From Pyxidicoccus trucidator (GTDB taxonomy: Bacteria > Myxococcota > Myxococcia > Myxococcales > Myxococcaceae), in the NCBI RefSeq assembly GCF_010894435.1, contig NZ_JAAIXZ010000001.1:898322-962321 (forward strand): DNA of 64,000 bases, read 5' to 3'. Below are positions 21,191 to 64,000 of the stretch, piece after piece (position 1 is the stretch's first letter; every line of letters begins with the position of its first letter). The notes under the pieces were generated by a model, which saw only the letters and a program-made list of their open reading frames with translations, searched no databases and was not told the origin of the DNA. The position numbers and the translations under genes are program-made.

Positions 21191-21484
21191 GGAGTGGCTC
21201 CTGCGAGAAGAGAGGTAGGTCCGCTTGAGCAACACGGATGCCAGCGCCCTGCCCCCGGAGCAGACCCTCCCCGGAGACGCGGCACCTGTGACGGAGGCGA
21301 CACCCCGGCTCAGAAATCTGACTCCCAGGCCAGCGACGCCTGCTGCTCACGACAGATTCTCAGCATTTCATGGATTCCAACAGACCCGCCTGGCCAGGAC
21401 GCCCGGCACTCAACCCCGCTTCCAGGTCCGCCAATGACATGAACCGGCATTCATGGTTCGGTCGCCGCGCGTGTCATCAGGTCG
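21191..21484. other. Divergent intergenic region, no gene seen
   Basis: About 294 bp between the lipoprotein and histidine kinase starts. It should carry promoters for both. A short inverted repeat (GAACC...GGTTC, with ATGAA...TTCAT overlapping) occurs near 21438-21457. I found no convincing ORF or sRNA here. Confidence 0.4.
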
Positions 21485-61969: not shown

Positions 61970-62009
61970 CGCCCGCCCCGGCCTCGTGCCCGGGCGGGCG
62001 TTGGCTTTT
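61970..62009 (+). terminator. Intrinsic terminator of the nuo operon
   Basis: CGCCCGCCCCGG, seven-base loop, CCCGGGCGGGCG, then TTGGCTTTT: an 11 of 12 pair stem with a T-rich tail, ending at the stop of the convergent GNAT gene. Confidence 0.75.
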
Positions 62010-62860
62010 CAGGGGCCGGGCGGGGGCAGCGGCCCGCGCAGCTCCAGCGTCTCATGGCGCACCTCGGCGCCCGCCTCGCGCAGCAGCCCGTCCAGGCGCG
62101 CGTCGTCCGTCACCACCAGGTTGAGCGCCGCCACGTCGTCCGGCAGCTGGGCGAAGGCCGCCTCCAGCAGCGCCCGCGCATGGCCGGGGGACACCGCGAA
62201 GAAGGGGAAGAGCAGCCGCCCGGCGGCGCGCTGGTCCATCACCCCCAGCGGGGCGTCCGAGGCCGCGGCCGGGTCCACCAGTCGGGACAGCTGGTGCGAG
62301 GGCTTCGCGGCGAAGCGCGCCAGCTTGCCTGGAATCATCCCGAAGGCCGCCGTCAGCGGCGCATGCTCCTCCAGGCCTACCGGCAGCAGCCGCAGCCCCG
62401 GCGGCGCGGCCGGCAGCGCCGCCACCTGGGCCCGCGTCACCAGGAGTGTCGCCGCCTCGCGCACGGGCCGCATCCCCACCGAGGTGTAGAGGCGCAGCGC
62501 GGGCAGGTTGTCCCGCTTCACGTACAGCGCCCAGCGCTGGCAACCCTGCGCCCGGAGGCGCTCCGCCAGCCGCGCCATCATCCACCGACCCAGGCCCTGC
62601 CCCCGCGCGGATGGGTCCACCACCAGCTGCCCCACGTACCCCACCTCGCCCAGGGACTCTGTCATCGCGTAGGCCACCACCCCACCCCGCCCTTCCGCGA
62701 AGACGGTCAACGGGGCGAGCTCCGACTCCCACACCGGCGGCGGAGGTGGGGGGTCGTCGACCCCAAGCTCCGCGAACAGCCGGATGAAGAGTGCATGGTC
62801 CTCGGGCCGACCGGCTCGCAACACCCACGATGAGCCCTGCTGTCCCACGTCCACCGCCAT
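62009..62860 (-). CDS. GNAT-family N-acetyltransferase
   Basis: 283 residues from ATG (MAVDVGQQGSS), behind GAGGAGGGG; in-frame Met further upstream is unsupported. Residues about 12-150 form the GNAT fold: GQLVVDPSARGQGLGRWMMARLAERL (split; acetyl-CoA pyrophosphate loop RGQGLG, about 85-92) and YVKRDNLPALRLYTSVGM. The C-terminal 120 residues look like a second, weaker GNAT-like unit (FFAVSPGHARALLEAAF). The substrate is unknown. As I recall, its M. xanthus counterpart flanks the pxr sRNA. Confidence 0.85.
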   Translation of the reverse strand: MAVDVGQQGSSWVLRAGRPEDHALFIRLFAELGVDDPPPPPPVWESELAPLTVFAEGRGGVVAYAMTESLGEVGYVGQLVVDPSARGQGLGRWMMARLAERLRAQGCQRWALYVKRDNLPALRLYTSVGMRPVREAATLLVTRAQVAALPAAPPGLRLLPVGLEEHAPLTAAFGMIPGKLARFAAKPSHQLSRLVDPAAASDAPLGVMDQRAAGRLLFPFFAVSPGHARALLEAAFAQLPDDVAALNLVVTDDARLDGLLREAGAEVRHETLELRGPLPPPGP

Positions 62861-62924
62861 CAGGCACCCCTCCTCACGCATTGGAAGGGGACTGACGGAA
62901 ACGCGAAAGCTTTCTGGACGTAGA

Positions 62925-63044
62925 AAAGAAGGCGGCCCGACACCCCATAAGGGTGCCGGGCCGCGGGTCTTCTCAAGGTGACTCACCGGAAGTGCTGAAG
63001 GGGTGGGGGGGAACCGCCTTCAGCCCCGCTTCGATGTGTCCCGC
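62925..63044 (-). ncRNA. pxr: Pxr-like developmental sRNA
   Basis: Predicted transcript of about 120 nt between the GNAT and NtrC-family genes, on the minus strand. It begins 12 bp after a sigma-54-type promoter. SL1: GCTGAAGG (63024-63017) pairs with CCTTCAGC (63001-62994), extended by GAAG/CTTC; its loop contains seven cytosines (minus strand, 63011-63005). SL2: GGTG-AGT-CACC (62987-62977). SL3: a 14-bp imperfect terminator stem (62964-62932) followed by TTCTTTTC. This agrees with Pxr of M. xanthus as I know it: sigma-54-dependent, represses fruiting-body formation while food is present, carries a seven-C run, and lies between a GNAT gene and a sigma-54 regulator gene. Exact ends are inferred. 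Confidence 0.75.
62932..62964 (-). terminator. Intrinsic terminator of the pxr-like sRNA
   Basis: GCGGCCCG (A) CACCC, loop, GGGTG (C) CGGGCCGC: a 13-bp stem with one mismatch. Read on the minus strand it is followed by TTCTTTTC. Confidence 0.75.
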
Positions 63045-63054
63045 GCATTCCTTT

Positions 63055-63071
63055 AGCAGCCGCCGTGCCAG
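63055..63071 (-). promoter_or_regulatory. Sigma-54 promoter of the pxr-like sRNA
   Basis: On the minus strand CTGGCACG, four bases, CTGCT: the -24 GG and -12 GC are 12 bases apart as required; only one base differs from TTGCT in the -12 element. Transcription would start near 63044. Confidence 0.65.
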
Positions 63072-63292
63072 CGTCTTCGCGAAGCCAAAGTCCAGTTTTC
63101 TCAAGGACTTGGCTCACCACCCGACGCTACTGGCCCCCCTCGATTGCATTGCAGCCCTGAAATGGAGTTGCAGAAGTGAAAACTACAAGTGATTTCGAGC
63201 ACTTGCGCTTTTCACCGATGAACCCCCGTTTTCGGATCTGAATCCAAGGGTGCGGGAAAGCTACAGCGGTGGGCCTACCCCCCACATCCACC

Positions 63293-64000
63293 CTACTCGC
63301 GAGCCAGCTCACTGGGCGGGCGGAGGTTGAGGCGCTTCATCTTCCGCCAGAGGGTGGTGGACGAGACGCCCAGCTCGTCCGCGACGCGAGCGAGGTCCAC
63401 GCCGTGCCGCTCCAGGGCCTGGGTGATGGCGTGGCGCTCGGCCTCCTCCACCACCTGGGCCAGCGTGGGCCCGGTGCCGGCGGGGCGGCTGACGCCGCCC
63501 TGTCCGTCCATGAAGCCGACGCTGGGCGTGCCATGGGACGGGGTGAGCCGGCCCTGGCGCAGGGGGAAGTCCTCGGGCAGCAGCTCATCGCCCTCGGAGA
63601 GTGCGGCGGCCTGCTCCACCAGGTTCTCCAGCTCACGCACGTTGCCGGGGAAGTTGTAGCCCATCAGGTGGGACACGGCGGAGGCGGACAGGCGCTTGGG
63701 CTTGGGGCTGCGCGCGTTGGCGCGCTCCAGGAAGTGCTCGGCCAGCGAGGGCACGTCCTCCAGGCGCTCACGCAGCGGCGGCACGCGCAGCGCCACCACG
63801 TTGAGGCGGTAGTAGAGGTCCTGGCGGAAGCGCTTCTCGCGCACCTCCACCTCGATGTCGCGGTTGGTGGCGGCGACGGTGCGCACGTCCACGCGCAGGG
63901 CGGTGGACTCGCCCACCCGGCGCACCTCGCCCTCCTGCAGCGCGCGCAGCAGCTTGGACTGGAAGGTGGGGCTGGTCTCCGTCACCTCGTCGATGAAGAG
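63293..64000 (-). CDS. Sigma-54-dependent (NtrC-family) regulator, C-terminal part
   Basis: The frame is open to the right edge (LFIDEVTETSPTFQSKLL), so the N-terminal receiver or sensor part and the Walker A/GAFTGA region are outside the window. Present: the second half of the AAA domain with the R-finger region (FRQDLYYRLNVVALRVPPLRERLEDV) and HLMGYNFPGNVRELENLVEQA, then a Fis-type HTH (HGVDLARVADELGVSSTTLWRKMKRLNL). It activates sigma-54 promoters. It lies 220 bp upstream of the sigma-54 promoter of the pxr-like sRNA on the same strand, so it is a natural candidate for its activator; this is inference. Confidence 0.9.
   Translation of the reverse strand, partial: LFIDEVTETSPTFQSKLLRALQEGEVRRVGESTALRVDVRTVAATNRDIEVEVREKRFRQDLYYRLNVVALRVPPLRERLEDVPSLAEHFLERANARSPKPKRLSASAVSHLMGYNFPGNVRELENLVEQAAALSEGDELLPEDFPLRQGRLTPSHGTPSVGFMDGQGGVSRPAGTGPTLAQVVEEAERHAITQALERHGVDLARVADELGVSSTTLWRKMKRLNLRPPSELARE

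Follow-up and report, generated by a model that had tools for sequence, protein, structure and literature searches.

The window – the whole 64-kb stretch of Pyxidicoccus trucidator DNA analysed here – carries a small-RNA gene on the minus strand between two protein-coding genes. Upstream of it is pxrR (63293..64000, minus strand), which encodes an NtrC-family response regulator (Pfam Response_reg, Sigma54_activat and HTH_8), extends past the window (481 aa in L091) and is itself preceded by the gene for a PAS/GAF histidine kinase (pxrK). On the other side is a pxrA-like GNAT acetyltransferase gene (62009..62860, minus strand; 283 aa from the ATG at 62860), assigned by Pfam Acetyltransf_1 (E 1.1e-16) and synteny, beyond which lie nuoN, nuoM and nuoL, so that both the window and synteny place the RNA gene downstream of pxrR and ahead of the nuo genes. 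A gap of 432 bp separates the GNAT start (62860) from the NtrC-family stop (63293), in agreement with the roughly 430 bp given in an earlier note made from the letters alone. The neighbours named in that note also agree with published accounts, in which a regulator gene lies upstream of pxr (PMC5568312, PMC5684412) and the GNAT gene pxrA adjoins it (PMC11928866).

Rfam covariance models identify a single RNA family in the window at their gathering thresholds, RF01812 (Pxr), at 63031-62924 on the minus strand, with a score of 127.1 bits (E 1.7e-22; gathering score 80) and an alignment spanning the full model (1-109 of 109). A full-length match of this score rules out chance. Together with the order pxrK-pxrR-pxr-GNAT-nuoN, which is common to the window and Myxococcus xanthus AM003 (PxrR 94% identical), it identifies the locus, by sequence, as an orthologue of the M. 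xanthus developmental sRNA Pxr. The earlier note had proposed exactly this and had suggested a covariance search, and the minus-strand elements that it listed lie where it put them. As such, the window Pxr is an ordinary further orthologue of a known RNA, and one to be expected; the likeness to M. xanthus Pxr takes in the covariance match, the sigma-54 box, the loop of U plus seven C and the site between pxrR and pxrA, and by eye four bases differ from the AM003 copy within the Rfam span and none in the loop. Membership of the strain in the Cystobacterineae, also proposed earlier, is borne out by genus group g1, which holds its genome with M. xanthus AM003 and Pyxidicoccus fallax. There is one Pxr copy above threshold in the strain's own genome (12.67 Mb, 136 contigs); a candidate second copy (G000:C3:505872) was rejected, scoring 33 bits and having neither C loop nor promoter. 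In M. xanthus AM003 (L104, L137) the GNAT gene matches the window PxrA in one piece over 24% of its length only, and may be disrupted or poorly sequenced there.

A predicted sigma-54 promoter and its upstream dyads

A sigma-54 promoter box (-24/-12; TGGCACGGCGGCTGCT) is predicted at 63055..63070 (minus strand) and sets the likely transcription start near 63044, 13 nt ahead of the Rfam start. The predicted pxr transcript is therefore about 121 nt long (62924..63044, minus strand), of which RF01812 spans 62924-63031 and our leader-aware model R1 spans 62924-63043 (121.4 bits). The box and its spacing, which the earlier note had singled out, are conserved at nearly every homologue, and the sigma-54 dependence that it named corresponds to a predicted sigma-54 promoter in print (PMC5684412). 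A strict scan finds two boxes in the 64-kb window and 0, 1, 0, 2 and 0 in five mononucleotide shuffles; taken alone the box could be chance, because the shuffles give as many, and the promoter assignment for the window pxr combines the sequence match with conservation. The other strong sigma-54-like box, TGGCATCCGTGTTGCT at 21228-21243 (minus strand), may itself be chance, the shuffles giving 0-2 per window. A YAA-N4-TTGA block lies at 63101-63111, some 40 nt ahead of the -24 box and within a larger inverted repeat; it is present in 39 of 130 upstream regions (1.1 expected), mainly in Myxococcus-like genomes, and resembles an IHF core consensus.

Further upstream are two operator-like dyads matching in 10 of 10 letters (63149..63162 and 63168..63181), which are putative PxrR sites, and a third matching in 9 of 10 (63210..63223). 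The motif, TTKCA-N4-TGMAA, was picked by eye from 27 upstream regions, with a site defined as at least 9 of the 10 letters, and in the window it occurs at these three places only, all in the pxrR-GNAT gap. Among 135 upstream regions there are 338 sites, mostly paired, against 1.8 expected from local shuffles, an excess that is very large though descriptive, because part of these data had served to choose the motif. At least two dyads are present in 122 of these regions, one in eight and none in five (the count omits G055:C46, G093:C667:27301, G101:C1:2187409, G000:C3, G049 and regions shorter than 200 nt). Where pxr copies stand in tandem (L032-L037, L043-L046), every complete copy has its own sigma-54 box and dyads.

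The upstream regions of G125, G126, G122, G123 and G087 contain no dyad, and that of G127 has a single distant one (9 of 10 letters). No PxrR orthologue was found in G125, G126, G122, G087 or G127, the best among the matches listed being 45-48% identical over most of the protein and shorter domain pieces reaching at most 54%, as compared with 56-98% for PxrR at the pxr loci of other genomes where it is well covered. Sigma-54 is kept in G125 and G126 and was not found in G127; in G134, a family member lacking Pxr, the best PxrR match among those listed is 48% identical. Dyads are missing from genomes in which the search gave no PxrR orthologue, and this is most simply read as the loss of PxrR sites along with PxrR. 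The dyads upstream of pxr are probable PxrR operators, to which PxrR is predicted to bind; an upstream enhancer-binding region is mentioned, its letters not given in the text available, in PMC5684412 and PMC5568312.

The SL1 loop and its possible partners

The stem-loop with seven cytosines claimed by the earlier note is SL1 (62994..63024, minus strand; Rfam, fold and conservation), whose loop at 63005-63012 is a U plus exactly seven C (63011-63005). We extracted 125 Pxr hits, near-identical ones not all being taken, and the 14-mer GGTTCCCCCCCACC around the loop is exact in 111 of them. Six others read GGTTTCCCCCCACC, one has eight C and seven are without the motif as written; the last comprise four chance hits, one truncated by a contig end and two diverged homologues. 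The strong terminator is likewise present as SL3 (62926..62974, minus strand), a hairpin followed by a T-run and conserved across homologues (Rfam, model-fitted alignment and fold). In M. xanthus the SL1 loop is essential and SL3 is required for Pxr accumulation (PMC5684412).

Pxr prevents development when nutrients are present, as described for M. xanthus and for several transferred homologues (PMC5568312). It occurs in a long and a short form, of which the short is thought to be active; RNase D acts on a still longer precursor to give the long form, PxrR is essential for Pxr synthesis, and a single C-to-A change in the loop inactivates the RNA (PMC5568312, PMC5684412, PMC11928866, PMC10217877, PMC2330069). 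The same sources include a 2025 account of Pxr expression changes and predicted binding sites – one of them upstream of pxrA – with no targets known earlier. The seven-C mutation mentioned by the earlier note is in print as this C-to-A change, at the fifth base of the SL1 loop (PMC5684412).

The loop of U plus seven C most likely pairs with G-runs in mRNAs. The effector of RepG, a small RNA of Helicobacter pylori, is a C-rich loop. RepG acts on a G-repeat in an mRNA leader (PMC8295292), and the analogy is one of function only, the G-run targets of Pxr being hypothetical and homology not being claimed. Near ATG codons, GGGGGGAA gave 155 matches in three small genomes against 129 for a reversed-pattern control, and in a search of 27 genus genomes with TGGGGGGGAAC only pxr itself recurs in all, a few other strings being common to two to four of the 27; searches of this kind cannot resolve short G-run seeds. 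We do not claim pxrA as a target, because its ribosome-site region is G-rich in some relatives and not constant. Pxr could also be a decoy, its C-run loop binding an RNA-binding protein with no pairing to mRNA, and both the near-invariance of the loop and the lack of a conserved extended target in the 27 genus genomes would suit this. However, a short G-run seed would slip past the target searches, and we know of no protein tied to the Pxr C-run loop. Target pairing and chaperone binding are both left possible in PMC5684412, which also describes M. xanthus as having no hfq homologue, a point counted for the decoy. A decoy seems to us unlikely, and we keep to pairing with mRNA G-runs in what follows.

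A probable helix between the leader and the SL2 segment

The 13-nt leader ahead of the Rfam start is able to base-pair with the published SL2 segment, forming a helix that we call P0, with its 5′ strand at 63032..63042 and its 3′ strand at 62977..62988 (both minus strand), the latter overlapping published SL2 (62977-62987). Both strands are assigned by a swap test and pair counts, together with pair probabilities of 0.79-1.0 for the leader and the fold for the 3′ strand. P0 is described here for Pxr, and is absent from the Rfam model and from the published three-stem drawing.

In a MAFFT alignment some of the genera are shifted out of register within P0, and the case for P0 therefore rests on the swap test, which needs no alignment. 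It used 27 sequences, obtained by clustering at 80% the 97 distinct sequences among 117 of the 125 hits. The mean pairing energy is -12.42 kcal/mol with the own partner and -7.57 kcal/mol (SD 0.49) with swapped partners (z -9.9, 0 of 10,000 swaps), and 19 genera represented by one sequence each give z -7.9 (0 of 20,000). As controls, the 18-nt stretches immediately before +1 and after the terminator gave z -0.1 and z -0.3, respectively, with the SL1 arms as positive control giving z -4.4. The eight hits left out of the P0 counts are the chance hits G055:C46, G093:C667:27301, G101:C1:2187409 and G000:C3, the truncated G049 (contig end), and G087, G122 and G123, which have no sigma-54 box to fix the start. 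A model-fitted alignment covers 90 sequences, 82 of them distinct, from 56 sources; it was fitted to the P0 model and leans towards P0. In it each of the nine P0 pairs has changes in both strands, and pairing holds in 89.5% of P0 cells. Over the whole structure there are 325 double-change cells, where shuffles give 82 and slid versions 55-79. Covariation of the leader is also an argument for an RNA start near the sigma-54 +1, and we suggest a start about 13 nt earlier for the Rfam family model.

The published drawings have three stem-loops (PMC5568312, PMC5684412), and if that model is sufficient then SL2 is a real local hairpin and leader pairing a side effect of sequence conservation or of the promoter region. 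The earlier note took over this picture in its second small stem (62987-62977), which stands in so far as a 4-bp hairpin can form there, as it can in this subgroup, and does form in the window once the leader is unpaired; that fold has -59.9 kcal/mol and the fold with P0 -66.8, a difference of 6.9 kcal/mol in favour of P0. Of the 97 distinct homologues, however, just 24 allow an SL2-type hairpin (4 bp, 3 nt, three or more G-C pairs), whereas 96 have five or more leader bases paired across SL1 in their minimum-energy fold. Moreover, covariation between genera links the leader to the SL2 segment and does not extend to the neighbouring DNA. We consider it very unlikely that three stems suffice; the three-stem picture looks incomplete, and the data suggest that leader and SL2 segment form a conserved helix, P0, in Pxr. 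Removal of the leader would toggle the RNA between P0 and SL2, and this toggle may be what distinguishes long from short Pxr. A mixed P0 (M. xanthus leader, Cystobacter bodies) was considered as the cause of two failing published chimaera alleles and is not claimed here, related Archangium copies having the same P0 strand between positions.

That the window locus is a decayed copy without function is scarcely credible, for although the foot of SL1 reads AAGCGGGG in the window and mostly AAGCGAGG in the relatives shown, this A-U to G-U change still pairs in the Rfam structure, and the loop, P0, terminator, promoter and dyads are all intact. By orthology, Pxr in this P. trucidator strain would function as in M. 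xanthus. PxrK/PxrR, probably through the dyads at 63149-63181, would drive the sigma-54 promoter during growth, with transcription beginning near 63044. The leader would pair past SL1, setting SL1 on a long closed stem that presents the loop and is followed by SL3; the loop, most likely seeding on mRNA G-runs, would hold back development while nutrients last, and upon starvation the short form would vanish and development begin. We are confident, short of certainty, in this explanation as a whole: a PxrR/sigma-54-driven Pxr orthologue with a P0-SL1-SL3 fold, whose loop holds back development.

Distribution and a minimal form of Pxr

RF01812 matches at E <= 0.01 occur in 95 of 145 genomes of the order, all within the 96 genomes of the strain's own family, in which G134 alone has no match; 61 of the 145 have a match above the curated Rfam score, and some of the weakest matches are truncated or doubtful with the Rfam model alone. 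Pxr extends to many metagenomic genera, including some with genomes as small as 2.1-2.7 Mb, and occurs in tandem arrays of up to five copies. In four of the small genomes (L063, L064, L065 and L138) Pxr adjoins nuoN, the surrounding stretch examined contains no pxrR, and the genome matches listed include no PxrR orthologue.

With R1, 114 of 195 genomes of the phylum match at E <= 0.01 (E-values being rough), including 19 genomes outside the family, of which two (G001, G185) are chance matches; G001, G185, G020 and G022 were rejected as Pxr, having no C loop. A minimal Pxr is present in 16 genomes outside the family as a single hairpin that fuses P0 with SL1 and carries a C-run loop; a U-tract stands in place of SL3, and a sigma-54 box lies upstream. 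A second hit in G137 keeps an SL3-like hairpin. The minimal form is located at the pxrR locus in 14 of the 16 – directly after pxrR in 13 and about 1.7 kb away in G016 – with nuoN on the other side in 11 (within the stretch fetched), and because of this shared location these 14 are very probably orthologous to Pxr. In G138, G139 and G137 the Pxr-like RNA and a PxrR orthologue (62-65% identical, among the matches listed) are on different contigs, and in G139 and G137 the RNA is flanked by unrelated genes. Several other genomes of the minimal-form families have no R1 match among the matches listed.

Three single-contig genomes with the minimal form are presumably Anaeromyxobacter dehalogenans 2CP-1, A. 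dehalogenans 2CP-C and Anaeromyxobacter strain Fw109-5, and the minimal-Pxr genomes probably include Anaeromyxobacter and its kin. A. dehalogenans 2CP-C (5.01 Mb) is described as lacking genes essential for M. xanthus fruiting, e.g. devRS (PMC2330069), and the minimal-Pxr relatives probably do not fruit. The comparison suggests that minimal Pxr is an older, shorter form. We can tentatively imagine, as a possibility and not as the likelier course, that Pxr is an ancient PxrR/sigma-54-driven RNA with a P0-SL1 hairpin and poly-C loop as its core, that it predates fruiting, persists in Anaeromyxobacter-like relatives and was later recruited to guard fruiting, and that long-to-short processing in Myxococcus strips the leader, converts P0 to SL2 and so switches structures. 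The open-access literature on Pxr, in the portions available to us, holds no description of P0, the dyad pair or the minimal form, and a single open-access paper, the genomics review PMC8538405, contains both 'pxr' and 'Anaeromyxobacter'.

These comparisons make three matters testable: the long and short forms of Pxr, as P0 versus SL2; how PxrR finds its promoter, through a specific dyad pair; and a role for Pxr before or outside fruiting, given that relatives which are probably non-fruiting have a minimal form at the same locus and that genomes of 2.1-2.7 Mb keep the RNA. Finally, pxr, pxrR (93%) and the nuo genes are also present in record BNCN01000002.1 (L098), which bears the title 'Comamonas sp. 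KCTC 72670' but is probably a mislabelled Myxococcus.
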